Source: Planobispora longispora
GTDB taxonomy: Bacteria; Actinomycetota; Actinomycetes; Streptosporangiales; Streptosporangiaceae
Assembly (NCBI RefSeq): GCF_016863135.1
Contig: NZ_BOOH01000034.1
Coordinates: 59,546-123,545 of the forward strand
Direction: 5' to 3'
DNA: 64,000 nt
A program made the translations under genes and the position numbers. Positions 3,589-60,700 of the stretch are shown here, piece after piece; the first letter of the stretch is position 1, and each line of letters starts with the position of its first letter. A model generated the notes under the pieces. It worked only from the letters and a program-made list of their open reading frames with translations, was not told the origin of the DNA and did no database searches.

Positions 3589-3608
3589 AAACAAGCTAGC
3601 GCTTGTTT
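3589..3608. promoter_or_regulatory. KstR2-type operator (site 1)
   Basis: AAACAAGC-TAGC-GCTTGTTT, a perfect 8-bp inverted repeat around four bases, in the divergent promoter between the membrane protein and the acyl-CoA dehydrogenase. The inner 14-mer at 3594-3607 (AGCTAGCGCTTGTT) fits AnCAAGnnCTTGnT with one mismatch. It ends 27 bp before the ATG at 3635. Confidence 0.75.
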
Positions 3609-3634
3609 ATCATGTGCCCGTGGACGCCACCGAC

Positions 3635-4606
3635 ATGAGCCTCACCGAGGAGCAAGCCGCCCTCCGCGACGCCGTCCGTTCCTTCCTGTCCGAGCGCCCG
3701 GACGCGTCATGGCGCCGGTTCGCCGCCGAGCTCGGCGTGGCGGGTCTCGCCGTTCCCGAGGAGTACGGCGGGGCGGGCTGCGGCATGGCGGAGGTCGCCG
3801 TCGTCTGCGAGGAGCTGGGCCGCGCGCTGGCGCCGTACCCCTACCTGTCCACCGTCGTGCTCGCCGCCGAGGCGCTCAGGGCGGGCGGCGACCCGTCGGC
3901 GATGGCCCGCCTGCTGCCGGGCATCGCCGACGGCTCCCGGACCGCGACCGTCCTGCTGCCCGGCGACGCCGACCTGACGCTGACCGGCGGCCGGCTCACC
4001 GGCGCCGCCCGCTACGCGCTGGACGCCGAGGTGGTGCTGGCGTTCGCCGGCGGGGAACTGGTCGAGGCCGTCCCCTCTTCCCGCACGCCGCACACGACCC
4101 TGGACCCCACCCGCCCGCTCGCCACCCTGACCTTCGACGCCGTCCCGGTCCGGCCCGCCGGGGACGGCGCGGCCGCCGGCCGGATCCGCGACCTGGGGGT
4201 CACCGGCCTGGCCGCCGAGCAGGCGGGCGGCGCCGCCCGCTGCCTGGAGACGGCCGTCGCCCACGCGGCCGGGCGCCACCAGTTCGGCCGTCCCATCGGG
4301 TCGTTCCAGGCCGTCAAACACAAGCTCGCCGACATGCTGCTGATGGTCGAGTCCGCCCGGTCGGCCGCCATGGCCGCCGCCCGCGCCCTCCCCGGGGACC
4401 TCCCCGTCGCCGCCGCCGTCGCCGGCTCCTACTGCACGGAGGCGTACCTCTCCGTCGCGGGCGAGAACATCCAGATCCACGGCGGCACCGGCATCACCTG
4501 GGAGCACTCCGCCCACCGCCACTTCAAGCGCGCCGCCGCCGACGCGCAGCTCTTCGGCCCGCCCCAGGCCCACCGCGCCCGGCTGGCCTCCGCCGCCGGC
4601 CTGTGA
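3635..4606 (+). CDS. Acyl-CoA dehydrogenase, short form (FadE32/FadE33-like size)
   Basis: FAD-dependent alpha,beta-dehydrogenation of an acyl-CoA. At 323 aa it is shorter than the usual 380-400 aa. Seen: a typical N-terminus (MSLTEEQAALRDAVRSFL), GLAVPEEYGGAGCG near residue 42, the C-terminal helical domain (GRHQFGRPIGSFQAVKHKLA) and the terminal signature ENIQIHGGTGITWEHSAHRH. Short FadE proteins of steroid catabolism in mycobacteria work as heteromers of two different subunits. No partner of that size lies beside this gene, so the partner may be elsewhere. GTG codons at 3614 and 3620 are in-frame alternatives. The operator immediately upstream (3589-3608) ties it to the regulon described here. 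Confidence 0.88.
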   Translation: MSLTEEQAALRDAVRSFLSERPDASWRRFAAELGVAGLAVPEEYGGAGCGMAEVAVVCEELGRALAPYPYLSTVVLAAEALRAGGDPSAMARLLPGIADGSRTATVLLPGDADLTLTGGRLTGAARYALDAEVVLAFAGGELVEAVPSSRTPHTTLDPTRPLATLTFDAVPVRPAGDGAAAGRIRDLGVTGLAAEQAGGAARCLETAVAHAAGRHQFGRPIGSFQAVKHKLADMLLMVESARSAAMAAARALPGDLPVAAAVAGSYCTEAYLSVAGENIQIHGGTGITWEHSAHRHFKRAAADAQLFGPPQAHRARLASAAGL

Positions 4607-4707
4607 CCGCTCCCGGCACGGGTCCGCCGGCCGCTCCCGGAACGGGCCCCGCCGAGGGCTCACCGGCCGCTCCGGCAGGGGGCTCACCGATCATTCCGGT
4701 ACGGGAC

Positions 4708-5217
4708 TCACCGATCACGCAGGGGCACGACGCCCGAGACCGTCGTCCCGCCGCCGGGCGTGCCGTTGACGGTGAGCACGCCGCCGAGCTCGGCGAAAGC
4801 CGTCCGCATCGCCGCGGAGCCGCGCCCGAACGCCAGCCTGGAGAAGCCCACGCCCCCGTCGCTCACCGTCAGCTTCAAACTGTCCTGGCCGGCGGTCACC
4901 GCGACGGAGACCGAGCGCGCCCGGCTGTGCCGCTCGACGTTCGACAGCGCCTCCTCCACGGCGACGAGCACGCCCCGGGCGACCCGGGCGGGCACCCGCC
5001 TGCCGGGCAGGGCCCAGGTCTCGACCGTGATCCCCGTACGCCCCGACCAGCTCGCCAGCAGCTCTTCCAACGCCTCCGCCAACGCCCCGTCCTCGACCCC
5101 GGACGCGCGCGGGACTCCCCCGGCGGCGGCCTCCTCCGTGCCGTGGGCGCCACCGGGCACCGAGCCGGCCGCGTCACCACCGAACTGCATGGGCAACTGT
5201 TTTCTCCCGTCTTGCAC
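4708..5217 (-). CDS. Lone histidine-kinase-type ATPase domain protein
   Basis: A 169-aa protein that is almost only a HATPase_c domain of the NarL-family sensor kinase type. The N-box is VAVEEALSNVERHSRA, the G1 box is SDGGVGF and the G2-like segment is GSAAMRTAFAELGG. No membrane segment and no HisKA/HisKA_3 phospho-acceptor block is visible before it, and the first 45 residues look unstructured. Such proteins may act as anti-sigma-like kinases or be remnants of sensor kinases. No response regulator is adjacent. The start is a GTG; an in-frame ATG at 5190 with an upstream GGGAG is an alternative. It converges on the acyl-CoA dehydrogenase. Confidence 0.65.
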   Translation of the reverse strand: MQDGRKQLPMQFGGDAAGSVPGGAHGTEEAAAGGVPRASGVEDGALAEALEELLASWSGRTGITVETWALPGRRVPARVARGVLVAVEEALSNVERHSRARSVSVAVTAGQDSLKLTVSDGGVGFSRLAFGRGSAAMRTAFAELGGVLTVNGTPGGGTTVSGVVPLRDR

Positions 5218-5300
5218 GGATCATCACTTTGCCCAGCATCGCCGAGAACCGCAAGACGGCCACTGATCTGTTCACGGCGGCATACGGGGGCGGCCGCCCG

Positions 5301-5765: not shown

Positions 5766-5943
5766 GACTGGGAGCGTCCCATCTCCGAAGTGTCGCGTCC
5801 CCCTCTTTGCCTCTTCTTCGCCCCGGCCTCACGAGAACCCGCCCTGCCGGCTCCCGCTCCGGCCCCGCGGGCGCCCGCCCGGCCGACCGGCCCGCCTCAC
5901 GGCGCGGTCGGCTTGTTGCCGTTGCACCCGGCTGGTAATCTCG

Positions 5944-5960
5944 CCAAGCGAGCGCTTGGT
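5944..5960. promoter_or_regulatory. KstR2-type operator (site 2)
   Basis: CCAAGC-GAGC-GCTTGG followed by T. The 14-mer at 5947-5960 (AGCGAGCGCTTGGT) fits AnCAAGnnCTTGnT with one mismatch. It lies 50 bp before the ATG of the luciferase-type monooxygenase, so it most likely controls the 6010-12365 operon. Confidence 0.8.
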
Positions 5961-6009
5961 TAAGTAAGAGCCCGCGACCGGGGATCGACGTGACACAACG
6001 GAGGCGTGG

Positions 6010-7077
6010 ATGACGTCCCTACGGATCAGCCTGGGATACGAACTGGAGGTCCGCGGGCGTTCCCGCGAGGTCGAGCAGCGCGCGTTCCGGAACGTGATCG
6101 ACCAGGTGGTCCTGGGCGACCAGCTGGGCTACGACACCGCCTGGTTCGTCGAGCACCACTTCACCCGGGGCTTCTCCCATTCCTCCGCCCCCGACCTGGT
6201 CCTGGCGGCGGCCTCCCAGCTGACCGAGCGCATCCACCTGGGTCTCGGCGTGGTCCTGCTGCCCTTCCAGTCCCCGATCCGCACCGCGGAGCGCGTCGCG
6301 ACGCTCGACGTCCTCTCCGGCGGCCGGGTGGAGTTCGGCACCGGCCGGGGCGCCTCCCCGCTGGAGTACCAGGCGTTCCAGCGGCCGTTCGAGAAGTCCC
6401 GGCAGATCTGGGAGGACTCCCTGGAGGCCACGCTGGCGATCTGGAAGGCCGACGGCGAGCCGGTCAGCCGCTCGAACGAGTTCTTCGAGATCCCCGACGT
6501 CGCGGTCTACCCCCGCCCGGCGCAGGTCCCGCACCCGCCGGTGTGGGTGGCCTCCACCTCCCTGGAGGGCTACCTCGCCGCGGCCAGGCACGGCTACAAC
6601 CTGCTCGGCATGACGATGCTCAAGGGCCTCGACGACGTCGCCGAGGACATCGCCAAGTACAAGAGGTGCCTGGCCGACAGCGGCTTCGACCCCGAGACGC
6701 GGCGGATCGCGCTGATGATCCCCTGGTTCGTCGGGCGGACCCGCGAGGAGGCGATCGAGATCGCCGCCGATCCCGTGCTCTGGTACATCAGGCGCCAGGT
6801 CAACCTGGTCACACCGCCCGACTACTACGACGCCCGGCACGCCACCCACAAGGTCCTCGGCCAGCTCGCCGCCGGCCTGCCGCCGGAGGACGCCATGGCC
6901 ACGCTCCGCGAGCACCACATGGTGGTGGTCGACGACGTCGAGGGCTCGCGCAAGGCCGCCGCCCGGATCGCCGAGGCCGGGGCCACCGACCTGATCCTCC
7001 AGGCTCAGGTGGGCGGTCTCGCGCACGAGCAGGTCTGCTCGTCGATGCGGCTGTTCATGACCGAGGTGATGAAGTGA
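6010..7077 (+). CDS. LLM-class (luciferase-like) flavin/F420-dependent oxidoreductase
   Basis: A TIM-barrel oxidoreductase of the bacterial luciferase superfamily, 355 aa, near the family length. Seen: GYDTAWFVEHHF (residues 40-51), an SSAPDLVLAAASQLTERI block, LPFQSPIRTAERVATLDVLS and GRVEFGTGRG, all standard for the fold. Members use FMNH2 from a separate reductase, or F420H2; the sequence alone does not tell which. The start has GGAGG six bases upstream. It is first in an operon with three adenylate-forming homologues and FprA, and a KstR2-type operator lies 50 bp upstream. The HsaB-like flavin reductase at 24240, behind the same operator type, could supply its reduced flavin; this is inference. 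Confidence 0.85.
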   Translation: MTSLRISLGYELEVRGRSREVEQRAFRNVIDQVVLGDQLGYDTAWFVEHHFTRGFSHSSAPDLVLAAASQLTERIHLGLGVVLLPFQSPIRTAERVATLDVLSGGRVEFGTGRGASPLEYQAFQRPFEKSRQIWEDSLEATLAIWKADGEPVSRSNEFFEIPDVAVYPRPAQVPHPPVWVASTSLEGYLAAARHGYNLLGMTMLKGLDDVAEDIAKYKRCLADSGFDPETRRIALMIPWFVGRTREEAIEIAADPVLWYIRRQVNLVTPPDYYDARHATHKVLGQLAAGLPPEDAMATLREHHMVVVDDVEGSRKAAARIAEAGATDLILQAQVGGLAHEQVCSSMRLFMTEVMK

Positions 7078-8138
7078 CGACCCCGATGACCTGGCGGACC
7101 CGGAGCGACCTGGCCGCCGCGGGCCGCACCGCGACGGGACTCCTGCACGTCTCCCCGGACGGCGACACCGTCGTGCCGGGCGACCCCGCCGGAGCCGCCG
7201 GAGCGTTCGTCGCGGCGCTGCGGGCGGCGGGCGTGGACCCCTCGGACCGGGTCGTGGCGGCGCTCTCCGGGGACGGCGAGCTGGCCGCGCCGCAGTGGAC
7301 GCACGCCGCGGCGGAGGTCGCGGCCGCGGCGGCCGCGGTCGGCCCCCGCGGGCGGCTCCGGCTGCACCACGCGCTGGAGACGCTGAAGGCCACGACGCTG
7401 GTCATCACGCCCACCGGGGCGATGGACCTGCTGGCCCGGCTGCACCTGGAGTTCCTGCTCGACCCGCTGGACCTGGGACTGCGGCACATCGTGCTGACCG
7501 GTGAGATCGCGTCCCGGCGGACCATGGACCACCTCGCCGCCGAGTTCGACGCGGAGGTCACGGAGGTCTACTGCTCGCCGTTCACCGCCGCCCCGCTGGG
7601 CTGGAGGTCCTCGGAGGCGGAACCGCTCACCCCGATCGCCCCGGGGTCGCTCGCCCTGGCCTCGCTGGAGAAGGACGAGCTGCTGGCCCCGCCGTACGCC
7701 GAAGGGCTGGCCGAGCTGGTCGTCGCCGACGGCGACACCGTCCTGCGGACCGGGCAGGTCGCCCGGGTGCCCGCCGGGGACGCGGTCCCCGCGCCCGCGC
7801 ACACCGTCGGCGACCACGTGCTGGTGCGCGGGGTCTGGCTCTCGCTGGAGCGCGTCCGCAAGGCGATGGGCAGGATCGACGGGGTCTCCGGCTGGGAGCT
7901 CGGCATCTCGCGCCAGGGCACCCTCGACGCCGCCGTCTTGACGGTGACGTTCAACCGGGAAAGTCTCATCGACAACCCCATGTGGAAGTCCCGCATCCAG
8001 CAGTCGCTCAAGGCGCTCACCCCGATCACGATCACCGTCGAGGTCGCCGGGGAGGTCGCGGAGGCGAGCACGCCGGGCACGGTGAACGACGCGCGGGGCC
8101 ACCACCTGGGCAGGGACCGCACCGCCATCGCCCGCTGA
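7074..8138 (+). CDS. PaaK-like adenylate-forming protein with degraded nucleotide loop
   Basis: Resembles phenylacetate-CoA ligase (PaaK/CapK) in its second half: RHIVLTGEIASRRTMDHLAA, EVTEVYCSPFTAAPLGWR, LVVADGDTVLRTGQVARV, and the C-terminal part RVRKAMGRIDGVSGWELGI to SLKALTPITITVEV. At 354 aa it is shorter than PaaK (about 430). Where PaaK has the SSGTTGKP phosphate-binding loop this protein reads LLHVSPDGDTVVPG, so ATP-dependent ligation is doubtful. The GTG start overlaps the upstream stop by 4 nt (GTGA), showing translational coupling with the LLM protein; an ATG at 7086 is possible. It may be a non-catalytic acyl-binding partner, or a divergent enzyme. Confidence 0.65.
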   Translation: MTTPMTWRTRSDLAAAGRTATGLLHVSPDGDTVVPGDPAGAAGAFVAALRAAGVDPSDRVVAALSGDGELAAPQWTHAAAEVAAAAAAVGPRGRLRLHHALETLKATTLVITPTGAMDLLARLHLEFLLDPLDLGLRHIVLTGEIASRRTMDHLAAEFDAEVTEVYCSPFTAAPLGWRSSEAEPLTPIAPGSLALASLEKDELLAPPYAEGLAELVVADGDTVLRTGQVARVPAGDAVPAPAHTVGDHVLVRGVWLSLERVRKAMGRIDGVSGWELGISRQGTLDAAVLTVTFNRESLIDNPMWKSRIQQSLKALTPITITVEVAGEVAEASTPGTVNDARGHHLGRDRTAIAR

Positions 8139-8156
8139 CGTCCCGAAAGGCGCGAG

Positions 8157-9758
8157 ATGGAAGTTCCGGACTGGGGGACCATCCCCCGGATGTTGCGCGA
8201 CCAGGCCAAGAACCATCCCTCCGACATCGTGGTGGCCGACGGGGAGGTGCGGCTCTCCCTCGCCGAGCTGCGCACCCGGGCCGCTTCCGTCGCCCGCGGG
8301 CTGATCGCCCTGGGCGTGGCGCCCGGCGACCGGGTCGCGATCTGGGGCCTCAACGACCTGCAGTGGGTGGTCGCGGCGTTCGGGGTCTGGGACGCCGGGG
8401 CGGCGGTGGTGCCGCTGTCGTCGCGGTACAAGGGCATCGAGGCGGCCGAGCTGCTCCGCGCGACCGGGGCGGTCCTGCTGATCACCGGGGAGAGTCTCGA
8501 CGGCTCCTCCTTCACCGACCTGCTGGCCGACGCGATGGGCGGCCCCGTGGCCGGGCGCCCCTTCGCCGGGCTGCACGACCTGCGGCACGCGGTCGTGCCC
8601 GAGGGCCTGGAGCGTCCCGGGACGCTCCCGCTCTTCCGGCTGCTCTCCGCGGGCTCGCGGGTCTCGCACGCCGAGGTCGAGGAGCGGGCCTGCGCCGTAC
8701 GGCCCGGCGACCTGTGCGAGATCATGTCCACCTCCGGGACCACCGGCACGCCCAAGGGGGTGATGCTGGAGCACGGGCAGGTCCTGCGCGGCTACTGGGA
8801 CTGGGCGGAGATCGTCACGCTCGGCCCCGGGGACCGCTACCCGGTCGTCGCGCCGTTCGCCCACGGGTTCGGCCTCAACGCCGGGCTGCTCGCCTGCGTG
8901 CTGCGCCGCGCCACGATGATGCCCATCCGGGCGTTCAGCCCGGACCTGCTCACCGAGCTGATCCGGGACAAGAGGATCACGATCCTGGCCGGGCCGCCGA
9001 CCCTGTTCCACCGCATCCTGGACGAGGTCGACACCACCGGCCACACGCTCCGGGTGGCGATCTGCGGCGCCGCCGCGGTCCCGGCGGAGCTGGTCCGGCG
9101 GCTGCTGGACCGGCTCGGGCTGGAACGCATGATCAACGCGTACGGGCTGATGGAGGGCACTGTCGTCTCCATGACCAGGGCGGAGGACCCGGTCGAGGTC
9201 ATCGCCTCCAGCACCGGCCGCGCGGTTCCCGGCGTCGAGGTCAAAATCGTGGACGACGGGGGCGCGGAGGTCCCGGCCGGGGAGCGCGGCGAGATCCTGG
9301 TCCGCGGGTACGGCGTCATGCGCGGCTACTGGGGCGAGCCCGTCAAGACCGCCGAGGTGGTCCGCGACGGCTGGCTGCACACCGGCGACATCGGCGCCCT
9401 CGACCCCGCCGGCAACCTGGCGATCGTGGACCGGAAGAAGGAGCTGTTCATCGTCAACGGGTTCAACGTCTCCCCCGCCGAGGTCGAGGGCCTGCTGCTG
9501 CGGGAGGGCTCGCTGGCCCAGGCGGCGGTGGTGGGGGTCCCGGACGTGCGCCGGGGCGAGGTGGGCTGGGCGTTCGTGGTGCCCCTGCCGGAGGCCGGCG
9601 CCGACCCGGAGAAGATACCGGACAAGATCATCGCATGGGCCCGGGACAACATGTCCGGCTACAAGGTCCCCGCGCGCGTGATCGTGGTGGACGCCCTCCC
9701 CGTGAACGCCAACGGCAAAATAGACAAGCGGGCATTGAAGGAACGGACCGCCATATAG
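8157..9758 (+). CDS. fadD3: Acyl-CoA synthetase, FadD3-like
   Basis: ATP-dependent activation of a carboxylic acid to its CoA thioester. It is a complete 533-aa ANL-family ligase with loop TSGTTGTPKGVMLEHG (about residues 192-207), ICGAAAVPAELV, AYGLMEGTVVS, the core DGWLHTGDIGALDPAGN, hinge DRKKELFIVNGFNVSPAE and the C-terminal lysine motif NANGKIDKRAL. Blocks such as ALGVAPGDRVAIWGLND and DAGAAVVPLSSRYKG resemble mycobacterial FadD3, which activates the steroid C/D-ring fragment HIP. The exact substrate here is inferred. It is 18 nt downstream of the PaaK-like gene with GAAAGG as ribosome site. It is the only one of the three adenylate-forming proteins in this operon with all motifs intact. 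Confidence 0.8.
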   Translation: MEVPDWGTIPRMLRDQAKNHPSDIVVADGEVRLSLAELRTRAASVARGLIALGVAPGDRVAIWGLNDLQWVVAAFGVWDAGAAVVPLSSRYKGIEAAELLRATGAVLLITGESLDGSSFTDLLADAMGGPVAGRPFAGLHDLRHAVVPEGLERPGTLPLFRLLSAGSRVSHAEVEERACAVRPGDLCEIMSTSGTTGTPKGVMLEHGQVLRGYWDWAEIVTLGPGDRYPVVAPFAHGFGLNAGLLACVLRRATMMPIRAFSPDLLTELIRDKRITILAGPPTLFHRILDEVDTTGHTLRVAICGAAAVPAELVRRLLDRLGLERMINAYGLMEGTVVSMTRAEDPVEVIASSTGRAVPGVEVKIVDDGGAEVPAGERGEILVRGYGVMRGYWGEPVKTAEVVRDGWLHTGDIGALDPAGNLAIVDRKKELFIVNGFNVSPAEVEGLLLREGSLAQAAVVGVPDVRRGEVGWAFVVPLPEAGADPEKIPDKIIAWARDNMSGYKVPARVIVVDALPVNANGKIDKRALKERTAI

Positions 9759-9781
9759 GCGGTCGCGGGAGTACTTTGGAG

Positions 9782-11038
9782 ATGGCCGCCTTCACCATGG
9801 GGAGCCCGCCCATGCTCCGACTGCTCTCCGGGGAGGCCGCACGCAGGTTCGGGGGGCGCGCCGCGGTCGACTCCGGCTCCCTCGTCCTCTCCTTCGCCGA
9901 GCTCGACCGTCTCTCCGACGGCGTCGCCGCCGGGCTCGCCCACCGGGGCGTGCGGATGGGCGACCTGGTGGTGCTCGCCCTTCCCGACGGACCCGAGTTC
10001 CCGATCTGCTACCTGGCCGCGGCCAAGGTGGGCGCGGTCACCGCGGGGCTCCGCCCCGACCGGCCCGTCCCGCCGGCCCGCCTCGATCCGGCGCTGGTGG
10101 TCGCCGCCCCCGGGACGGCGCTGCCGGGGCTGGAGGTGGTCACCCTTCCGCTGCGGGACGGCCCGGCCGGGCGCAGGCCGTACGATCCCGGACGGCTGGG
10201 AGCCCTGTACCGGTCCGAACCGCCGCCCCCGCCGCTCCCGCCCGACCCGAGGCGGCCGGTGGCCGTGGTGTTCACCCGGGGAGCCGTGCGCAGAGCGGAC
10301 GGCGGGACGGCCCCGCGGGGCGCGGTGTTCTCCACCCGCCGGCTGGAGGCGGTCCGCGCGCACGGGGCCGGGCTGCGCTGGGGCACCGGCGAGGCGAGGC
10401 TGCTGTCCCGTCCCCTGGGGCATTTGACGTTCATGACCAGGCTCCCGGTCTTCCTGCAGACCGGGCGGACCGCGCTCGTGCCGCCGCGCTGGGAGCCGGA
10501 GACGGTGCTGCGGATCCTGGCCGAGCAGCGGCTGGGCGTCCTGCAGGGCACCCCGGGGCAGCTGGCGGAGCTGCTGTCCCACGAGGCCGCCGCGGCCGGG
10601 GGGCCGGTGCGGCTGCCGTACCTCCGGATGGTCCTGTCCAGCGGCGGCGCGCCGGCCGCGGAGCTGATCCGGGCGCTGCGGAAGCGGTTCGGCGTGCCGG
10701 TCTGCAACCGCTACCTGTGCACCGAGGCCGGGCTGGGCCTGGGCACCCGCCCCGAGGACCCGCCGGAGGACGCCGAGCACACGGTGGGCCGCCCGCGCGG
10801 CGGGGTGAGCGTCGCGCTGCGGGACTCCTCCGGGCGGTCGCTGCCGCCGGGCGAGATCGGCGAGGTGCTGCTCCGGTCGGAGGCGGTGGCGGACGGCTAC
10901 TACCGCGACGCCCGGGCGAGCGCCGGGCTTTTCACCCGGGATGGGTACGTACGCACGGGAGACATGGGATACCTCGACGACGCCGGCCGGTTGAGTCTGG
11001 TGGGGCGTGCTTCGGTTGATACACAATCGCGGGCATAA
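9782..11038 (+). CDS. Truncated, probably inactive acyl-CoA synthetase homologue
   Basis: A 418-aa AMP-binding-fold protein resembling the large domain of FadD enzymes: AGLAHRGVRMGDLVVLALPD, VLSSGGAPAAELIRALRKRF, CNRYLCTEAGLGLG, GEIGEVLLRSEAVADGYY, RDGYVRTGDMGYLDDAGRLSLVGR. The phosphate loop is degenerate (FTRGAVRRADGGTAPRGAVF instead of TSGTTGxPKG). The chain ends right after the hinge (GRASVDTQSRA), so the whole C-terminal domain with the catalytic lysine is absent. The start is unclear: the ATG sits directly behind GGAG, and a TTG at 9776 with GGGAG is in frame. Its position right behind the intact ligase suggests a regulatory or binding role, or decay after duplication. Confidence 0.65.
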   Translation: MAAFTMGSPPMLRLLSGEAARRFGGRAAVDSGSLVLSFAELDRLSDGVAAGLAHRGVRMGDLVVLALPDGPEFPICYLAAAKVGAVTAGLRPDRPVPPARLDPALVVAAPGTALPGLEVVTLPLRDGPAGRRPYDPGRLGALYRSEPPPPPLPPDPRRPVAVVFTRGAVRRADGGTAPRGAVFSTRRLEAVRAHGAGLRWGTGEARLLSRPLGHLTFMTRLPVFLQTGRTALVPPRWEPETVLRILAEQRLGVLQGTPGQLAELLSHEAAAAGGPVRLPYLRMVLSSGGAPAAELIRALRKRFGVPVCNRYLCTEAGLGLGTRPEDPPEDAEHTVGRPRGGVSVALRDSSGRSLPPGEIGEVLLRSEAVADGYYRDARASAGLFTRDGYVRTGDMGYLDDAGRLSLVGRASVDTQSRA

Positions 11039-22492: not shown

Positions 22493-22894
22493 TCAGGCCG
22501 CCGGGCGCCAGTCGATCAGCGTCAGCCCGTCGTCCACCGCGGTGAAGGCCGCCTCGACGCGCTGCCCGGCCCGCGGGGGCTCCTCACCTCGCCAGTTGCC
22601 GTACATCACGCACTCGGGCGCGGCGGCCAGCCTGACCATCACCACGACGTACGGCTCCCGCACCCCGGGCAGGAACGGCTGGTGGCTGACGATCCAGCTC
22701 TCGATCCGCCCGGCGGGCTCGACCGGCTCCCAGCTCCACTCCGCGCCGCGGCAGCGGTGGCAGTAGGCGCGGGCGGGGAAGCGCGGCGTGCCGCAGGAGC
22801 CGCACCGCTGGAGGGCGAACTCGCCCGCGCGGACCCGGTCCCACCACTCCGCCGAGTCCCGGTCGGTCACCGGCCGTATCGCTTCCGCGGACAC
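22493..22894 (-). CDS. DUF35 OB-fold zinc-ribbon protein, Ltp partner
   Basis: A 133-aa protein with an N-terminal rubredoxin-like zinc ribbon (CGSCGTPRFPARAYCHRC, two CxxC pairs) and a C-terminal OB fold (GRIESWIVSHQPFLPG, YVVVMVRLAAAPECVMYGNW). In steroid side-chain degradation DUF35 proteins (for example in ChsH2) bind thiolase-like Ltp proteins to form an acyl-CoA retro-aldolase. The GTG start lies 4 nt after the Ltp stop, so the two are translated together and probably act as one enzyme. The operon is headed by the operator at 24055. Confidence 0.88.
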   Translation of the reverse strand: MSAEAIRPVTDRDSAEWWDRVRAGEFALQRCGSCGTPRFPARAYCHRCRGAEWSWEPVEPAGRIESWIVSHQPFLPGVREPYVVVMVRLAAAPECVMYGNWRGEEPPRAGQRVEAAFTAVDDGLTLIDWRPAA

Positions 22895-22898
22895 GGGT

Positions 22899-24041
22899 TC
22901 ACCCCTTCCTGAGGATCAGCGCCGAGGTGGCGGGCAGGATGTAGCCGGGCTGGGCGGTGGACAGGGCCACCTCGGCGCCGTCCACCTGCCGGTCGCCGGC
23001 GTCGCCGCGGAGCTGGGAGACGGCCTCGGCGACGTGGTTGATCCCGTGCACGTACCCCTCGGAGAGGAACCCGCCGTGGGTGTTGACCGGGATCCCCTCC
23101 CCCGAGGCGGCGTACGGCCCGCCCTCGCCCTTGGCGCAGAACCCGTAGTCCTCCAGCTGGACGACCACCGAGTAGGTGAAGCAGTCGTAGATCTCGGCCA
23201 CGTCGATCTCGGCGGGGCCGACGCCGGCCTGCCGGTACAGGCGGGGGGCCAGTTCGGCGGCGGCGGTCACCGTGACGTCGGACGGCCCGCCGGACAGGAA
23301 CGAGTCGCCGCCGCCCCAGGCCGCCGCGGAGATCAGCACCGGCGGGCGGCGCAGGTCGCGGGCCCGTTCGGCGGTGGTGACGACCAGGGCGCAGGCGCCG
23401 TCGGTCTCCAGGCAGCAGTCGAGCAGCCGGAACGGCTCGGCGATCCAGCGGCTGGCGAGGTAGTCGTCGAGGGTGATCGGGGTGCGCATCAGGGCCCGGG
23501 GGTTCTTGGCCGCGCTGGCGCGCTGCCGTACGGCGAGCTGCCCGAAGTGCTCTTCTTTAGTTCCATATTTCGCCATGTGGGCGCGGGCGAACATCGCGTA
23601 CTGCTGCGGCGGCGCGACGTACCCGTAGGGCGCCTGATACTGCACCTCGGGACTGACCGGCAGGCCGCGGCCGGTCCCGCCCATCCGGAACTCCGAGCGC
23701 GCGTTGATCGCCCGGTAGCAGACGACCGTCTCCGCCACCCCGGCCGCGACCGCGAGCGCGGCCTGCCCGATCACGGAGTGGGAGACGCTGCCGCCGCCGA
23801 ACTGGTCCAGGTGCCAGGAAGGCCGGTGGACGCCGAGCGCGGGGCCCACCACCGAGGGAGCCGCGGAGTCGCCGACCCGGTGGGTGGCCAGGCCGTCCAC
23901 GTCGTCGGCGGTCAGCCCGGCGTCCTCCAGCGCGGCCAGGATCGCCTCACAGGCCAAAGTCAGCGTGCTGACACCGGAATCCTTGGAGAACCGCGTGTAC
24001 CCGACGCCCGCGACGGCCGTACGGTCCCGGAATCCCGCCAC
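22899..24041 (-). CDS. Thiolase-like lipid-transfer protein (Ltp-type retro-aldolase)
   Basis: A 380-aa SCP2-thiolase-fold protein. It begins VAGFRDRTAVAGVGYTRFSK. Where true thiolases have the nucleophilic Cys, this reads QFGGGSVSHSVIGQ, as in Ltp aldolases that cleave rather than thiolyse. Other family blocks are CCLETDGACALVV, DVAEIYDCFTYSVVVQLEDY and HGGFLSEGYVHGINHVAE. With the DUF35 protein just downstream it should form a heteromeric aldolase acting on a beta-hydroxyacyl-CoA. I chose the GTG at 24041 because AGGGG lies about six bases before it; a GTG at 24047 is the alternative. The operator begins 14 bp upstream, so binding there should block transcription. Confidence 0.88.
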   Translation of the reverse strand: MAGFRDRTAVAGVGYTRFSKDSGVSTLTLACEAILAALEDAGLTADDVDGLATHRVGDSAAPSVVGPALGVHRPSWHLDQFGGGSVSHSVIGQAALAVAAGVAETVVCYRAINARSEFRMGGTGRGLPVSPEVQYQAPYGYVAPPQQYAMFARAHMAKYGTKEEHFGQLAVRQRASAAKNPRALMRTPITLDDYLASRWIAEPFRLLDCCLETDGACALVVTTAERARDLRRPPVLISAAAWGGGDSFLSGGPSDVTVTAAAELAPRLYRQAGVGPAEIDVAEIYDCFTYSVVVQLEDYGFCAKGEGGPYAASGEGIPVNTHGGFLSEGYVHGINHVAEAVSQLRGDAGDRQVDGAEVALSTAQPGYILPATSALILRKG

Positions 24042-24054: not shown

Positions 24055-24070
24055 CCAAGCAAGCGCTTGG
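24055..24070. promoter_or_regulatory. KstR2-type operator (site 3)
   Basis: CCAAGC-AAGC-GCTTGG, a perfect 6-bp inverted repeat. It contains CAAGCGCTTG and lies 14 bp before the Ltp start at 24041, in the divergent region shared with the flavin reductase. Confidence 0.85.
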
Positions 24071-24135
24071 CCAGAGGCTAGGCTGGTGCGCCGCGAGTGT
24101 CAACGAACACACTTTTTCCGGCGCTTCCCTACCAT

Positions 24136-24152
24136 CCAAGCAAGCGCTTGGT
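24136..24152. promoter_or_regulatory. KstR2-type operator (site 4)
   Basis: CCAAGC-AAGC-GCTTGG-T. The 14-mer at 24139-24152 (AGCAAGCGCTTGGT) matches AnCAAGnnCTTGnT at every defined position. It is centred 81 bp from site 3 and faces the flavin reductase-FadE30 operon, 88 bp before the ATG at 24240. Confidence 0.87.
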
Positions 24153-24239: not shown

Positions 24240-24884
24240 ATGGGCACCCACGCGGCACGGCTGCTGGAACCGGAGGGCCACTCCCGCGCGCATCTGAACG
24301 GACACGGGACCACCGGCAACGGAGCCGCCATGCGCAACGGCCTTCTCCCGGGTCACTCCGACGGATCCGGCGACCGGTCCCGCAGGCCCGGCGACCGCAA
24401 CGGGCCCGTCGACAGCACGCGGTTCCGGTCCGTGCTCGGCCACTTCGCCACCGGCGTCGTGGCCATCACCGCGATCGACCCCGACACCGGCGCGCCGTGC
24501 GGCCTGGCCGCCAACTCCTTCACCTCGGTCTCGCTCGACCCGCCGCTCGTGGCGTTCTGCGTGGCGCACACCAGCACCAGCTGGCCGCGCGTGCGCGCCG
24601 CCACGACCCTGACGGTCAACGTGCTGGCCGAGCACCAGCAGCCGGTCTGCGCGGCGCTGGCGAGCAAGGGCGGCGACAAGTTCGCCGACCTGGAGTGGAC
24701 CGCCTCCCCCAGCGGCAACCCCGTGATCAGCGACGCGCTGGCCTGGATCGACTGCTCCATCGAGGCCGAGCACCCGGCCGGCGACCACGTCATCGTCGTC
24801 GCCCGCGTCCACCAGCTCGACGTCCACGGCGACAGCGGCCCGCTGGTGTTCTTCCGCGGCGGCTACGGCCGGTTCCACACATGA
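24240..24884 (+). CDS. Flavin reductase, HsaB-like
   Basis: NAD(P)H:flavin oxidoreductase that supplies reduced flavin to a two-component monooxygenase. 214 aa with a 55-residue unstructured leader, then the reductase domain: FRSVLGHFATGVVAITAI, GLAANSFTSVSLDPPLVAFC, SWPRVRAATTLTVNVLAEHQ, AWIDCSIEAEHPAGDHVIVV and VFFRGGYGRFH. These blocks resemble HsaB of cholesterol degradation. No HsaA-type partner is in the window; the LLM protein at 6010 is one possible client. GAGGAGG lies 11 bases before the ATG; an in-frame ATG at 24156 would lengthen the leader. It is first in an operon with FadE30. Confidence 0.87.
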   Translation: MGTHAARLLEPEGHSRAHLNGHGTTGNGAAMRNGLLPGHSDGSGDRSRRPGDRNGPVDSTRFRSVLGHFATGVVAITAIDPDTGAPCGLAANSFTSVSLDPPLVAFCVAHTSTSWPRVRAATTLTVNVLAEHQQPVCAALASKGGDKFADLEWTASPSGNPVISDALAWIDCSIEAEHPAGDHVIVVARVHQLDVHGDSGPLVFFRGGYGRFHT

Positions 24885-24924
24885 CCGGGCTCACCGGGGC
24901 CGGGCGGCCCGCAGAGGAGGGCGC

Positions 24925-26076
24925 GTGACCGCCGCCTTCCGCGAGGAGATCCGCTCCTGGCTGGAGAAGCACCTGAGCGGCGAGTTCGCCCACGCCCGGG
25001 GGCTGGGCGGGCCCGGCCGCGAGCACGAGGGCCACGAGGTGCGCCTGGCCTGGGAGCGGCTGCTCGGCGCGGCGGGCTGGACCTGCCTGGGCTGGCCCGG
25101 GGAGCACGGCGGGCGGGAGGCGTCCCTGGCCGAGCAGGTCGTCTTCCACGAGGAGTACGCCCGCGCCCAGGCTCCGGCCCGGGTCGGGCACATCGGCGAG
25201 GGCCTCATCGGCCCCACCGTCATCGACTACGGCACCGAGGAGCAGAAGCGCCGCTTCCTGCCGCCGATCCGGCTCGGCGAGGAGCTGTGGTGCCAGGGCT
25301 ACTCCGAGCCGGAGGCCGGGTCCGACCTGGCGAACGTGCAGACCCGGGCGCGCCTGGAGGGCGGCGAGTGGGTGATCACCGGCCAGAAGGTGTGGACCTC
25401 CCTGGCCCACGTCGCCGACTGGTGCTTCGCCCTGTGCCGCACCGAGCCGGGCTCGGCGCGGCACAGGGGGCTGTCGTACCTGCTGATCCCGATGGACCAG
25501 CCCGGCGTCGAGGTCCGGCCCATCGTCCAGCTGACCGGGACCAGCGAGTTCAACGAGGTCTTCTTCGACGGGGCCCGCACGGCCGCCGCCAACATCCTGG
25601 GCGCGCCCGGCGACGGCTGGCGGGTGGCGATGGCCACGCTCGGCTACGAGCGCGGCGCCTCCACCCTCGGCCAGCAGATCGGTTTCCAGCGGGAGTTCGA
25701 CCGCGTCGTGGAGACCGCCAGGCGCACCGGCGCCGCCGAGGACCCGGTCCTGCGCGACCGGCTGGTCCGCTCGTGGCTGGAGCTGCGGATCATGCGCCTG
25801 AACGCGCTGCGCACGATGACCTCCCTGGCGGCCGGGGAACCGGGCCCCGAGGTGTCGATCGCCAAGCTCTACTGGTCGGAGTGGCACCGGCGGCTGGGCG
25901 AGCTGGCGCAGGCCGCGCAGGGCAGGGCGGGGCTGGTGGCCGACGGCCCGCCGTACGAGCTGAACGACCTGCAGCGGCTCTATCTGTTCAGCCGTGCCGA
26001 CACCATCTACGCCGGGTCCAGTGAGATCCAGCGCAACATCATCGCCGAACGCACCCTCGGCCTCCCCAAGGCATAG
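24925..26076 (+). CDS. fadE30: Acyl-CoA dehydrogenase, FadE30-like
   Basis: A full-length FAD-dependent acyl-CoA dehydrogenase, 383 aa. Its N-terminal run (FREEIRSWLEKHLSGEF, GLGGPGREHEGHE, GWTCLGWPGEHGGRE) and the core GYSEPEAGSDLANVQTRARL, ITGQKVWTSLAHVADWCFAL and SRADTIYAGSSEIQRNIIAE are, as recalled, very close to mycobacterial FadE30. FadE30 acts early in breakdown of the steroid C/D-ring fragment HIP after activation by FadD3. It follows the HsaB-like reductase by 40 nt and lies behind operator site 4. A strong hairpin starts at its stop codon. The ortholog call is from memory, not a search. Confidence 0.9.
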   Translation: MTAAFREEIRSWLEKHLSGEFAHARGLGGPGREHEGHEVRLAWERLLGAAGWTCLGWPGEHGGREASLAEQVVFHEEYARAQAPARVGHIGEGLIGPTVIDYGTEEQKRRFLPPIRLGEELWCQGYSEPEAGSDLANVQTRARLEGGEWVITGQKVWTSLAHVADWCFALCRTEPGSARHRGLSYLLIPMDQPGVEVRPIVQLTGTSEFNEVFFDGARTAAANILGAPGDGWRVAMATLGYERGASTLGQQIGFQREFDRVVETARRTGAAEDPVLRDRLVRSWLELRIMRLNALRTMTSLAAGEPGPEVSIAKLYWSEWHRRLGELAQAAQGRAGLVADGPPYELNDLQRLYLFSRADTIYAGSSEIQRNIIAERTLGLPKA

Positions 26077-46641: not shown

Positions 46642-47184
46642 TCAGCCCGGGAACCGGATGAACGACGGCGGGACGTGGTCGGACAGCCAGACGCCGTTGG
46701 CGCTGAGGCGGAACTCGTGCCCGGCGGCGCGCATCGCGCCCGCGTCGACGGCCAGCACGACCGGCCTGCCGCGGCGGCCCCCGACGCGGGCTGCGGTCTC
46801 GCGGTCGGGCGACAGGTGGACGTGGTGGCGGCTCATCGGCCGCAGTCCCTCGGCGCGGATCGCGGCCAGGTTGCGGGCCACCGTGCCGTGGTAGAGGAAC
46901 GCGGGCGGCTCGGTCACCGGCAGGTCGAGGTCCACGGCCACCGAGTGGCCCTGGCTGGCCCGGATCATGCCGTCCCCGACGGCGTAGCGCCGCTTGTCGT
47001 TGGCCGCCACGACCTGCTCCAGCTCGTCCCGCGAGATCGGGAACCCGTGCGCCGCCGCGGCCGACAGCAGCACGTCGATCTCCACCCAACCGCGCTCGTC
47101 CAGCGTGATCCCGATCCGCTCGGGCTGGTGCCGCAGGTGTTTCGCCAGATACTTGGAGATCTTCACCAGCCGCCGGTCGTCCAT
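46642..47184 (-). CDS. kptA: RNA 2'-phosphotransferase (KptA/Tpt1)
   Basis: A 180-aa enzyme that in yeast moves the splice-junction 2'-phosphate of tRNA to NAD+. Seen: the N-terminal winged domain SKYLAKHLRHQPERIGITLD, AHGFPISRDELEQVVAANDK, RYAVGDGMIRASQGHSV, then the ART-like domain YHGTVARNLAAIRAEGLRPM, RHHVHLSPDRETAARVG and PVVLAVDAGAM. The Arg-His-Arg-Arg set appears intact. Bacteria lack the tRNA splicing that makes its known substrate, so its bacterial role is unclear. GGAGG five bases before the ATG defines the start. Confidence 0.93.
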   Translation of the reverse strand: MDDRRLVKISKYLAKHLRHQPERIGITLDERGWVEIDVLLSAAAAHGFPISRDELEQVVAANDKRRYAVGDGMIRASQGHSVAVDLDLPVTEPPAFLYHGTVARNLAAIRAEGLRPMSRHHVHLSPDRETAARVGGRRGRPVVLAVDAGAMRAAGHEFRLSANGVWLSDHVPPSFIRFPG

Positions 47185-48799: not shown

Positions 48800-49705
48800 T
48801 CACGCGCCGTACACCGGCTCCGGCCCGGGCGCGCCGGCGAGCAGCTTGGCGACCGCCTCGCCGACCTCGGCCGGTTCCCAGCGGGCGTCCCGCTCCGCGC
48901 GCGGGCCGTGCCGCCAGCCGTCGGCGAGCGCGATGCTCCCGCCCTCCACCTCGAACATCCGCCCGGTGACGTGCGCCGAATCCGCCGATCCCAGCCAGAC
49001 CACCACAGGAGCCACGTTGGCCGGGTCCATGGCGTCGAAACCGCTCTCCGGCCGGGCCATCATCTCGGCGAAGACCTCCTCGGTCATCCGGGTCCGGGCG
49101 GCCGGGGCGATCCCGTTCACGGTCACGCCGTAGCGGCCCAGCTCGGCCGCCGCGACCAGGGTGAGGGCCGCGATGCCCGCCTTGGCGGCGGCGTAGTTGC
49201 CCTGCCCGACGCTGCCGAACAGGCCCGCCCCCGAGGAGGTGTTGATCACCCTGGCGTCCACCCGCTCGCCGGACTTCGACCGCTCCCGCCAGTGCGCCGA
49301 AGCATGGCGCAGCGGCAGGAAGTGCCCCTTGAGATGGACGCGGATCACGTCGTCCCACTCCTGCTCGGTCATCGAGACCAGCATCCGGTCGCGGACGAAC
49401 CCGGCGTTGTTCACCAGGACGTCGAGCCTGCCGAAGGCGCTCAGCGCCATCTTCACCAGGCGCGCCGAGCCGTCCCAGTCGGCGATGTCGTCGCTGTTGG
49501 CCACCGCCTGCCCGCCCAGGGCGCGGATCTCCTCGACCACCTCCAGGGCGGGGCCTCCGGAGCGGCCCGTCCCCCCGGGCCCGGCGCCCAGGTCGTTGAC
49601 CACGACCTTCGCCCCCTGGCGGGCGAACTCCAGGGCGTGCTCCCTGCCGATGCCGCGCCCGGCGCCGGTAACGATCACCACGCGCCCGTCACAGATCCCG
49701 CTCAT
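48800..49705 (-). CDS. Short-chain dehydrogenase of steroid C/D-ring catabolism (Rv3548c-like)
   Basis: A 301-aa NAD(P)-dependent dehydrogenase. The cofactor loop is VVIVTGAGRGIGREHALEFA, and then VVVNDLG, VLVNNAGFVRDRMLVSMTEQ, the Ser/Tyr/Lys site in INTSSGAGLFGSVGQGNYAA and TVNGIAPAARTRMTEEVF. The long C-terminal part (RMFEVEGGSIALADGW, ARWEPAEVGEAV, ending PVYGA) matches, as recalled, M. tuberculosis Rv3548c, a KstR2-regulon SDR. The operator at 49804-49820 lies about 100 bp upstream. It is divergent from the PadR gene. The substrate is presumed to be a hydroxyacyl-CoA of the pathway. Confidence 0.87.
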   Translation of the reverse strand: MSGICDGRVVIVTGAGRGIGREHALEFARQGAKVVVNDLGAGPGGTGRSGGPALEVVEEIRALGGQAVANSDDIADWDGSARLVKMALSAFGRLDVLVNNAGFVRDRMLVSMTEQEWDDVIRVHLKGHFLPLRHASAHWRERSKSGERVDARVINTSSGAGLFGSVGQGNYAAAKAGIAALTLVAAAELGRYGVTVNGIAPAARTRMTEEVFAEMMARPESGFDAMDPANVAPVVVWLGSADSAHVTGRMFEVEGGSIALADGWRHGPRAERDARWEPAEVGEAVAKLLAGAPGPEPVYGA

Positions 49706-49803: not shown

Positions 49804-49820
49804 CCAAGCAAGCGTTAGGT
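49804..49820. promoter_or_regulatory. KstR2-type operator (site 5, imperfect)
   Basis: CCAAGC-AAGC-GTTAGG-T. The left arm is perfect. The right arm has two changes against AnCAAGnnCTTGnT (14-mer AGCAAGCGTTAGGT at 49807-49820). It is located 99 bp before the SDR start. Confidence 0.65.
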
Positions 49821-53142: not shown

Positions 53143-53156
53143 AACAAGCGATTGCG
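53143..53156. promoter_or_regulatory. Possible weak KstR2-type operator (site 7)
   Basis: AACAAGCGATTGCG agrees with AnCAAGnnCTTGnT except at two positions in the right half. It is placed 20 bp before the regulator's start, where an autoregulatory site is expected. Confidence 0.4.
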
Positions 53157-53176: not shown

Positions 53177-53866
53177 GTGAACATGCGAAAGAACTCCGGC
53201 GGCGCCGCCACCACCCCGGTCAAGCGCCAGGGCACGACGAAGCGCGCGGCCGCATCCGGCTCCGCCTCGGAGCGCCGCGATCACCTCGTCAAGCTCGCCG
53301 CCGAGCTCTTCGCCCGCAAGGGGTTCCAGGCGACCACCGTCCGCGAGATCGCGGAGGAGGCCGGAATTCTATCCGGGAGTCTCTACCACCACTTCGACTC
53401 CAAGGAGACGATCGTCGACGAGGTGCTCAGCACCTTCCTCGACGACCTCGTCGGCCGCTACCGCGCCGCGCTGGAGCAGGGCGGCGACCCCCGCACGGTC
53501 CTGTCGGAGATGGTGCGGATCGGTTTCAGCACCCTCGAACCGCACCGCGCGGCGATCACGGTCATGCAGAACGACTGGAACTACCTGCGCTCCCTCCCCG
53601 GCGACCGCTTCGACTACCTGGTCAAGGCGGAGGAGGAGGTCGAGCGCATGTGGGTCGAGCAGATCAAGCGCGGCCAGGCCGCCGGCCAGTTCCGGGGAGA
53701 CGTGGACCCCAAGCTCACCTACCGCATGATCCGCGACACCATCTGGGTCGCCGTCCGCTGGTTCCGCCCGGGCGGCCGCCTCAACACCGCCGGTCTCGCC
53801 GACCACTACGTCACCGTCCTCTTCGACGGGCTGGCCACCGGAGAGCGCACCAGCCAGAAGGCGTGA
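53177..53866 (+). CDS. kstR2: KstR2-like TetR-family repressor
   Basis: A 229-aa TetR repressor. After a basic 35-residue leader comes the helix-turn-helix domain (HLVKLAAELFARKGFQATTV, REIAEEAGILSGSLYHHFDS, KETIVDEVLSTFLDDL). The ligand domain ends with MWVEQIKRGQAAGQFRGD, YRMIRDTIWVAVRWFRPGG and LADHYVTVLFDGLA. The ILSGSLYHHF, MWV...GQFR and IRDT-W-VRW-RPGG blocks coincide, as recalled, with mycobacterial KstR2, which is released from DNA by the CoA ester of the steroid fragment HIP. The operators in this window fit its known site. An ATG at 53183 is an alternative start. It stands alone, not beside its presumed targets. Confidence 0.85.
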   Translation: MNMRKNSGGAATTPVKRQGTTKRAAASGSASERRDHLVKLAAELFARKGFQATTVREIAEEAGILSGSLYHHFDSKETIVDEVLSTFLDDLVGRYRAALEQGGDPRTVLSEMVRIGFSTLEPHRAAITVMQNDWNYLRSLPGDRFDYLVKAEEEVERMWVEQIKRGQAAGQFRGDVDPKLTYRMIRDTIWVAVRWFRPGGRLNTAGLADHYVTVLFDGLATGERTSQKA

Positions 53867-54855: not shown

Positions 54856-54872
54856 CCTCGATCAGGAGTGTC

Positions 54873-59341: not shown

Positions 59342-59362
59342 CAAGCCTCCCGCACAATGATG

Positions 59363-59381
59363 TTAGGTGAGGCTAACCTTA
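59363..59381. promoter_or_regulatory. Iron box before fepD
   Basis: TTAGGTGAGGCTAACCTTA, two changes from TTAGGTTAGGCTAACCTAA, 22 bp before the FepD-like start. Confidence 0.9.
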
Positions 59382-59482
59382 TATACACTCCGCTGGCGGG
59401 GAGGAACCGGGGGCTCCGCCGATAGCGGCCGGAAATCCGCCACACCGGTCCCGCATGGCCGTCCCGGCCGGGCACGCGCCGC

Positions 59483-60565
59483 TCAGACACCCCGGGTGAG
59501 CAGCGCGGCGCTGCCGTAGCTCCCGCCGAACCCCGTCACCAGCGCCGTCCGGCGGCCCGCCCGCAGTTCCCGTACGGCCTGCGCCACATTGTTGAGCCCG
59601 TGCACGTACCCTTCCGAGAGCAGGCCGCCGTGCGGATTGACCCCGGCGTGGCCGCGCCGGAGCAGGAACTCCCCGAGCTCGGCGCGCGCCACCAGGCCGA
59701 AGTCCTCCAGCTGGCGGGGGACCAGCCAGGAGTACGCGTCGTAGAGCAGGGCCACGTCCACCTCGCCCGGTTTCATCCCCGAGCGCTCCCAGAGCAGGGG
59801 GGCGAGGTGGCCGGAGAAGATCCCGGTGACGTCCGGCGCGCGGTCCATGGCCGAGCAGCCGGGGCCGCCGCCCCGCACCACCGTGTGGATGCGGGGGGCC
59901 TCGGGCGCCAGCCGCACGTCCCGGACCACCAGCGCGCACGCGCCGTCGGTCTCCTGGCAGCAGTCGACGGTCCGCAGCGGCGAGCAGACGTACGGCCGGG
60001 ACAGGTAGTCCTCCAGAGAGAGCGGGTCCCGGCGCAGGGCCCGGGGGTTGGCGGCGGCGTTCTCGCGGGACTGCGCGACGACCGCGTGCAGGTGCTCCTG
60101 CGTGAGGCCGGTCTCGTGCAGGTAGCGCTGGGCCGCCAGGGCGAACATCGGGATGGGGCCGGCCATGCCGTACGGGACGGTGAAGCGCTCCTGCGGACCG
60201 GTGGAGACGGTGTTCATGCGCGTGCCGGAGCGGCCGTTCAGCGCCCGGTAGACGAGGACCGTCCGGGCCAGGCCCGCGGCGATCAGCATGGCCGCCTCGC
60301 CCAGGATGGAGGCCGCCTGGGTGCCGCCGCCGGTGATGTCGTTGTGCCAGCCCAGCGGCTCGATCCGCAGCGCCGAGGCGACCTGGACGACCGGGGCGGA
60401 GTCGTTCATGTGGTAGCTGAGCACGGCGTCGACCTCGCCGGGCTCGATCCCCGCGTCGGCGCAGGCCGCCCGGGACGCCTCGACCGCGAGCTCCAGCTCG
60501 GTCCTGCCCGACTCCCTCGTCAGGGCCGTCATCCCGATCCCCGCGACGGCCGCCCTGTCGCGCAT
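59483..60565 (-). CDS. Second thiolase-like Ltp protein
   Basis: A 360-aa SCP2-thiolase-fold protein related to the one at 22899. It starts MRDRAAVAGIGMTALTRESG. The nucleophile position again lacks Cys (DITGGGTQAASILGEA), so it should be an Ltp-type aldolase or acyl-binding protein. Conserved blocks are CCQETDGACALVV, DVALLYDAYSWLVPRQLEDF and HGGLLSEGYVHGLNNVAQAV. Unlike the first Ltp gene it has no DUF35 gene beside it. GGGAG five bases before the ATG supports the start. The KstR2-type operator at 60687 lies 122 bp upstream, linking it to the regulon, not to the NRPS genes next door. Confidence 0.85.
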   Translation of the reverse strand: MRDRAAVAGIGMTALTRESGRTELELAVEASRAACADAGIEPGEVDAVLSYHMNDSAPVVQVASALRIEPLGWHNDITGGGTQAASILGEAAMLIAAGLARTVLVYRALNGRSGTRMNTVSTGPQERFTVPYGMAGPIPMFALAAQRYLHETGLTQEHLHAVVAQSRENAAANPRALRRDPLSLEDYLSRPYVCSPLRTVDCCQETDGACALVVRDVRLAPEAPRIHTVVRGGGPGCSAMDRAPDVTGIFSGHLAPLLWERSGMKPGEVDVALLYDAYSWLVPRQLEDFGLVARAELGEFLLRRGHAGVNPHGGLLSEGYVHGLNNVAQAVRELRAGRRTALVTGFGGSYGSAALLTRGV

Positions 60566-60686
60566 CGGACTCCCGAGAGATTCGTGTCGCCCGCCGGGGC
60601 GGGGCGCGATCCGCCCCGGCGAGCGACGTCCGTGGGCGGCCCGGTGCGGGCCGTCGCCCGTCACGCTAACGCGCTCCAGACACTTA

Positions 60687-60700
60687 GGCAAGCGCTTGCT
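60687..60700. promoter_or_regulatory. KstR2-type operator (site 6)
   Basis: GGCAAGCGCTTGCT, matching AnCAAGnnCTTGnT except at the first base, with the perfect palindrome GCAAGCGCTTGC inside. It lies in the 188-bp gap between the TauD-like gene's end and the Ltp start. Confidence 0.7.

Follow-up and report, generated by a model that had tools for sequence, protein, structure and literature searches.

Background

The regulators closest to the one described here are the KstR2 proteins (Rv3557c) of Mycobacterium tuberculosis, M. smegmatis and Rhodococcus. In mycobacteria the three KstR2 sites all lie close to the kstR2 gene itself, and the regulon comprises 15 genes (PMC3068626); it encodes the catabolism of 3aα-H-4α(3'-propanoate)-7aβ-methylhexahydro-1,5-indanedione (HIP) (PMC5380842). 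In Nocardioides simplex VKM Ac-2033D, KstR2 sites were predicted in 29 operons, 10 of which responded to phytosterol (PMC7807495). Mycobacterial KstR, a repressor of sterol side-chain and A/B-ring genes, controls side-chain genes (PMC9782250). Here we analysed a 64,000-nucleotide stretch of the Planobispora longispora genome (the window), in which the gene starting at position 53177 encodes a TetR protein of the KstR2 family. We consider it probable that this protein is a repressor distinct from the KstR2 of the genome's HIP cluster, likely autoregulated, which would bind CAAGCGCTTG palindromes ahead of about 30 scattered transcription units, and which is predicted to let go of them on binding a sterol-derived acyl-coenzyme A (acyl-CoA).

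The 53177 protein resembles the described KstR2 proteins in its TetR fold and sequence, its recognition helix, its proposed 14 bp operator, the site before its own gene and an RDTxWVxVRWxRPGG stretch. It differs from mycobacterial KstR2 in that its candidate sites are about 30 in number and scattered, and that none lies in the HIP cluster, which has a KstR2 of its own and another operator.

The 53177 gene encodes a KstR2-family regulator

53177..53866, + strand: TetR regulator of the KstR2 family, window type, proposed to repress the regulon; Pfam TetR_N and TetR_C_24
53143..53156: proposed autoregulatory site AACAAGCGATTGCG, 20 bp before the regulator start, 2 mismatches; overlooked in the initial annotation of this DNA

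An initial annotation, made from the letters of the window, had assigned the 53177 protein to KstR2, and its domains, solved relatives and recognition helix all agree with membership of that family. The best solved relatives are 2ibd (187 bits) and M. tuberculosis KstR2 (4w1u/4w97, 171 bits), and the recognition helix, GILSGSLYHHF, is the same in the 53177 protein, M. tuberculosis KstR2 and RHA1 KstR2. Its NCBIfam matches include no model named KstR2. HIP-CoA is the effector expected of a KstR2-family regulator; the VRW.RPGG stretch, which presumably contacts the ligand, is kept as in mycobacterial KstR2. In the window the gene is flanked by a beta-hexosaminidase-like gene and a DNA-alkylation-repair gene; the synteny that accompanies KstR2 (fadA6, ipdF, fadE, ipdAB) is absent from this locus and is found instead around a second copy on contig C52.

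The KstR2 operator AnCAAGnnCTTGnT is present as sequence, including before the regulator's own gene, and this arrangement recurs across the family. Window-type regulators are found across Streptosporangiaceae and Actinomadura-type genera. Among the best 80 of 529 orthologous regulator loci, a site lies within 250 bp upstream of the regulator gene in 37/80 when an exact match is demanded, in 55/80 with at most one mismatch and in 70/80 when two are tolerated; downstream of the gene, the same search gave 0/79.

The palindrome is an enriched and mostly intergenic motif

The six palindromes described in the initial annotation, built on CCAAGC-N4-GCTTGG, were all found at their positions with an offset of 0-5 bp; this 16-mer form is not enriched in the window, and one of the six sites (site 5, below) is unsupported. 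With up to three mismatches the 16-mer pattern occurs 37 times in the window against 36.3 expected, which is chance level, and when the centre of the published consensus was left free and at most one mismatch allowed, the whole genome had 193 places against 164 in the reversed control, near control. Both counts favour an explanation in which the palindromes are chance or structural repeats rather than operators. Since the free-centre consensus was too noisy, it was dropped and the genome was scanned with the CG-centred form ANCAAGCGCTTGNT. In the 8.84 Mb genome this form gave 8 exact matches against 0 in the reversed control and, with at most one mismatch, 41 places against 7; five of the 41 fall inside the window. 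Intergenic positions account for 32/41 sites and intragenic ones for 9/41, where 14% intergenic would be expected from the same stretches (p 4e-20). The gene calls behind these counts came from a custom GC-frame script, and the 14% background was taken from the stretches around the sites; one site (C63:72340) was reassigned by hand from intragenic to intergenic, the overlapping open reading frame looking spurious, and two members of the intergenic set (C62:73232 and C37:155228) overlap the start codon of a called gene. The palindromes are a real enriched motif in this genome: what is at random frequency in the window as a 16-mer is clearly enriched genome-wide in its CG-centred form. With the motif mostly intergenic, placed before the regulator gene across the family and absent in exact form from genomes without this regulator family (below), a chance or structural repeat is contradicted by the upstream-site and co-occurrence counts and appears hardly credible.

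Co-occurrence was examined in 200 family genomes, a match at E <= 1e-35 being taken as KstR2-like and a best match at E <= 1e-58 as window type. The 51/200 genomes without a KstR2-like match have 0 exact sites (control 14), while the 138/200 with a window-type regulator have 315 (control 34). Weaker or partial KstR2-like matches only are found in 11/200 genomes, which have 38 exact sites (control 2). Two of these 11 (G016 and G159) encode KstR2-like proteins with a Ser-type recognition helix and CAAG sites nearby; thus, their sites fit the pairing of helix and operator described below. The highest count of the 200, 22 exact CAAGCGCTTG-type sites, was seen in a genome (G208) that encodes four KstR2-like proteins, none of window type at the threshold used.

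Conservation of individual sites was scored for 31 intergenic sites. A site stands before the orthologue for 30 of them in the sister genome G002 and for 15 (13 distinct loci) in G028. Around the sites retained in the 15 G028 pairs, the ungapped flanks (20+20) have fallen to 41.8% identity; in the G002 pairs the flanks are still 78.9% identical, which makes the G002 footprint comparison weak.

Several of these comparative results speak against a conserved regulon. In the footprint control, which looked at 40/41 G002 sites and 31/35 G028 sites, a match within the orthologous gene was seen for 2/9 intragenic sites in G002 and likewise for 2/9 in G028. Matches inside genes can thus be retained as well, and the footprint supports operator function without proving it; the G028 conservation alone (15/31 against 2/9) does not separate operators from coding matches. 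A pattern match was demanded in both genomes, so the site identity of 93.8% is not independent evidence. Furthermore, 38/138 window-type genomes have no exact site, and in some genomes the count at up to one mismatch is below control (13 against 25 and 14 against 29, for example).

The HIP cluster has its own KstR2-family gene and another operator

The genome holds a second strong KstR2 relative, on contig C52, which is 44% identical to the 53177 protein; the next match in the genome is only 27% identical. Its surroundings were read as a canonical HIP cluster (echA20, ipdA, ipdB, ipdC, two acyl-CoA dehydrogenases, an ipdF-like short-chain dehydrogenase, the regulator and fadA6), with gene names assigned from gene order rather than by a family scan. 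The proposal that the 53177 protein is the genome's KstR2 is therefore not supported: the syntenic KstR2 is the C52 copy, and it lies in a HIP cluster with other operators. The two promoters of this cluster carry AACAAATGTTTGGT and AACAACTGTTTGGT. Genome-wide, AACAAMTGTTTGGT with at most one mismatch is found at exactly two places, which are these two operators, and the HIP cluster of this genome has no CAAGCGCTTG-type site but carries AACAA[AC]TGTTTGGT instead. HIP-type operators are also present in the matching clusters of ten relatives (eleven loci).

We weighed whether the HIP-locus KstR2, or both KstR2-family proteins, might bind the CAAGCGCTTG sites and so run one overlapping steroid regulon. 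Both proteins belong to the KstR2 family, and it is the HIP-locus copy that is nearer to mycobacterial KstR2, with 204 bits against 171 for the 53177 protein and a grouping supported at 98/90 in the tree. One finding counts against separate regulons: in the HIP cluster of G025 a CAAGCGCTTG site (L143:11347) lies about 30 bp behind fadA6, possibly a cross-wiring of the two regulons. On the other side, the operators of the HIP cluster differ and occur at two places genome-wide, the helices differ between the nearest relatives of the two proteins (120/120 against 120/120), and CAAGCGCTTG-type sites precede the window-type gene in 70/80 loci. A single overlapping regulon is therefore unlikely in our judgement.

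The recognition helix varies with the operator. The 53177 protein's 120 nearest relatives all have EAGILSGSLYHHFDSK, with ILSGSLYHHF as in M. tuberculosis and RHA1 KstR2, and the C52 protein's 120 nearest relatives all have LGGSLYYHF; the members of these two samples are not independent. Fifteen loci with a Gly/Ala helix carry CAA[ACT]-type operators (one of them, L248, a hybrid only), and three Ser-helix loci outside the window type (L244, L245 and L246, the L245 site being taken from the exact-site genome listing) carry CAAG..CTTG. The hybrid sites, namely the second site of L247 and the only site of L248, go against a strict pairing. Three loci (L147, L248 and L249) belong to a third KstR2-like clade with the helix ILAGSIYHHF; their operators are CAAA-type in L147 and L249 and hybrid in L248.

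The tree places the KstR2 proteins of mycobacteria and rhodococci on one side together with the HIP-locus copies (98/90), apart from the window-type clade (100/96). The alternative grouping of the window type with mycobacterial KstR2 is not rejected (p-AU 0.32). A second tree left out the distant TetR outgroups, whose branches were 8-10 in the first. The Ser helix and CAAG operator are likely the old state, and the HIP-locus copies would have changed. We propose that the HIP-locus KstR2 reads AACAA[AC]TGTTTGGT, because its helix has Gly/Ala for Ser and mostly Tyr for His; the two repressors would then run separate steroid regulons with little cross-talk. In a fuller version of this proposal, the window-type paralogue keeps the ancestral operator code and a side-chain regulon of about 30 promoters, and the HIP KstR2 moved away through the Ser-to-Gly/Ala (and His-to-Tyr) change in its helix, splitting steroid catabolism; we give this evolutionary history an even chance of being right. 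One genome, G057, has the Gly/Ala helix and no window-type match. Avoidance of cross-talk therefore cannot be the sole cause of the switch, and an origin of the new operator for that purpose alone has become less likely.

In their C-terminal half, the C52-type relatives lack the VRW.RPGG stretch and have AASWY, AANWY and similar sequences instead, which may reflect a changed inducer.

Predicted targets of the regulon

The initial annotation had seen a regulon spread over 57 kb under a single repressor that serves the degradation of steroid-like rings. One dispersed regulon stands, with the motif assigned to the 53177 protein by inference and the unit at site 5 left unsupported; its extent and its function are not supported, the conserved sites being distributed over about 30 promoters of the whole genome. 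The HIP cluster of this genome is without such sites, and those targets that can be recognised encode sterol side-chain enzymes and a cholesterol oxidase. Elsewhere in the genome these include an EchA19 (266 bits, the first entry under another name scoring 190), a ChsH2/Ltp pair, and a row of genes for a ligase, a 298 aa protein that looks DUF35-like by eye, two Ltp/thiolase proteins and another ligase. The cholesterol oxidase (754 bits) is encoded by the third gene after one perfect site. Among the targets, three Ltp/thiolase models and one acyl-CoA synthetase model score above cutoff; we take PRK07798, PRK07937 and PRK08313 to correspond to FadD19, Ltp4 and Ltp3. Comparison with solved structures did not settle whether the ligase L032:16117 is FadD19. 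M. smegmatis depends on FadD19 for side chains branched at C24 (PMC6273163).

What these genes best have in common is a predicted role in sterol side-chain and entry reactions. Alternatively, the regulon could serve lipid or terpenoid catabolism broadly, with another acyl-CoA as its inducer. Many target families are generic: besides more luciferase-like monooxygenases, there are a P450, PhyH, TauD, a CoA-transferase III, an FMN oxidoreductase and an F420H2-quinone reductase. No hsa, kstD or ksh gene was recognised by eye in the stretches read, and no genome search for them was made. A sterol function is further called into question by targets that are not obviously steroid genes (heparinase-like, SnoaL, a peptide-binding ABC protein and TauD) and by the position of the cholesterol oxidase, which as third gene follows a 273 bp gap. 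EchA19, the cholesterol oxidase, the Ltp/ChsH2-type pairs and the ChsE-like dehydrogenases can be taken as sterol-associated by their best solved relative, and this argues for a sterol regulon; we regard a broader one as a serious, though lesser, possibility.

With side-chain genes as predicted targets, the 53177 protein would resemble mycobacterial KstR; its proposed operator differs. The KstR operator, taken as TAGAACNNGTTCTA, occurs at 10 places in this genome against 12 in the control and so shows no enrichment, and none of the 10 places at which TAGAACnnGTTCTA was found coincides with a CAAGCGCTTG-type site. Exact KstR-type palindromes, TAGAACGTGTTCTA, were seen at C44:61943 and C63:59070 of this genome's own set (G000), and G001 and G002 have two exact ones each.

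Sites and predicted target genes in the window

The sites of the window and their genes are given below, with mismatches counted against AnCAAGnnCTTGnT; the recount gives the tally of the initial annotation (none for site 4, one for sites 1, 2 and 6, two for site 5).

3594..3607: site 1, AGCTAGCGCTTGTT, 1 mismatch; precedes the G002 orthologue, not found in G028
3614..4606, + strand: acyl-CoA dehydrogenase subunit, IpdE2/ChsE-like; NCBIfam IpdE2 210 bits (below the cutoff of 450)
5947..5960: site 2, AGCGAGCGCTTGGT, 1 mismatch; kept in G002 and G028
6010..7077, + strand: luciferase-like monooxygenase, which likely heads an operon; Pfam Bac_luciferase
7074..11038, + strand: three further likely members of this operon, starting at 7074, 8190 and 9782
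22493..22894, - strand: ChsH2-type DUF35 partner of the Ltp thiolase; ChsH2 domains
22899..24041, - strand: Ltp-type thiolase/aldolase; 6ok1 lipid-transfer protein 286 bits, lipid-transfer subfamily model 379 (cutoff 469)
24058..24071: site 3, AGCAAGCGCTTGGC, 1 mismatch; kept in G002 and G028
24139..24152: site 4, AGCAAGCGCTTGGT, perfect (0 mismatches); kept in G002 and G028
24330..26076, + strand: unit divergent from the Ltp unit, with a flavin reductase (start 24330; Flavin_Reduct) and an acyl-CoA dehydrogenase (start 24925; Tcur3483 (6wy9) 191 bits, 4x28 chain A 166 bits)
48800..49705, - strand: short-chain dehydrogenase adjoining site 5; Pfam adh_short
49807..49820: site 5, AGCAAGCGTTAGGT, 2 mismatches; weak
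59483..60565, - strand: second Ltp-type thiolase; Thiolase_C_1, lipid-transfer subfamily model 287 bits (below the cutoff of 469)
60687..60700: site 6, GGCAAGCGCTTGCT, 1 mismatch; kept in G002

The placement of each site ahead of a catabolic gene is borne out by G002 orthologues for sites 1, 2, 3, 4 and 6 and finds no support for site 5. Among the 80 regulator loci, 14 have an orthologous short-chain dehydrogenase (at least 60% identity), and only one of these has a site in the 200 bp upstream; site 5, mostly not conserved, is probably not genuine. Sites 3 and 4 lie on one divergent promoter, and the window therefore holds four supported target promoters rather than six. The 14-mer of site 6 recurs in G028, before an amidohydrolase-like gene (by eye) that precedes the thiolase orthologue. 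The dehydrogenase at 3614 has Tcur3481 (6wy8) and then 4x28 chain D as its best solved relatives; the Tcur3481/3483 and 4x28 dehydrogenases are, we assume, enzymes of steroid side chains. The longest open reading frame for this gene begins at 3563 and would overlap site 1. In the operon behind site 2, the 7074 gene encodes a 354 aa product without an NCBIfam match, the 8190 gene a FadD3-like ligase (FadD3-family model 526 bits, below the cutoff of 657) and the 9782 gene an AMP-ligase-like protein.

The Ltp thiolase of site 6 sits amid genes of iron-siderophore type. Between 54873 and 63984 the window contains a binding protein, an enterochelin-esterase-like protein and two FecCD permeases, together with, at the contig end, TauD, a major facilitator superfamily protein and a PP-binding/thioesterase protein; the contig edge may have cut through a siderophore cluster here. 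Other genes of the window include one for a KptA/Tpt1 RNA 2'-phosphotransferase (46642-47184), here in a bacterium, and a tandem pair of serine/threonine kinase genes (18450-22435), AfsK-like below the model cutoff.

Discussion

What stands of the initial interpretation is a KstR2-family TetR protein, a KstR2-type operator and one dispersed regulon; its identification as the genome's KstR2, the 57 kb extent and the role in ring degradation are not supported. That the 53177 protein binds these sites, represses the units behind them, answers to a CoA thioester and serves the degradation of sterol side chains we infer from sequence. The operator itself, and its binding by mycobacterial KstR2, are known already: the 14-mer of site 4 is contained in a gel-shift probe used with mycobacterial KstR2 (PMC3068626). 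This paper was, by title or the start of the abstract, the sole KstR2 one among the matches listed for CAAGCGCTTG in the literature.

A dispersed set of KstR2 sites was likewise predicted in N. simplex VKM Ac-2033D; that strain differs in that one kstR2 gene is listed and the predicted regulon includes the HIP genes (PMC7807495). The name KstR3 has been given to a protein of Mycolicibacterium neoaurum (PMC10398937) and again for cholate clusters (PMC7593942, PMC8708139). Like the 53177 protein as predicted here, these TetR regulators are connected with genes for sterol or bile-acid side chains, and one of them lies beside an aldolase/DUF35 pair; the M. neoaurum protein differs in having a small local operon (PMC10398937). 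We have not used the name KstR3 for the 53177 protein because it is already taken twice. Our literature search found no paper that joins Streptosporangi* and KstR2. As far as these searches show, two proposals are new: another regulator of the KstR2 family that governs a genome-wide regulon of its own, and the change of operator at the HIP copy.

If this reading is right, it would be a mistake, in a large group of actinomycetes, to take any KstR2-like protein for the repressor of ring C/D degradation; source annotations give the name KstR2 to proteins of both kinds. The two proteins would also make a clean pair for testing how one position of the recognition helix sets the operator of a TetR regulator, and the approximately 30 promoters may mark sterol side-chain genes in these actinomycetes.

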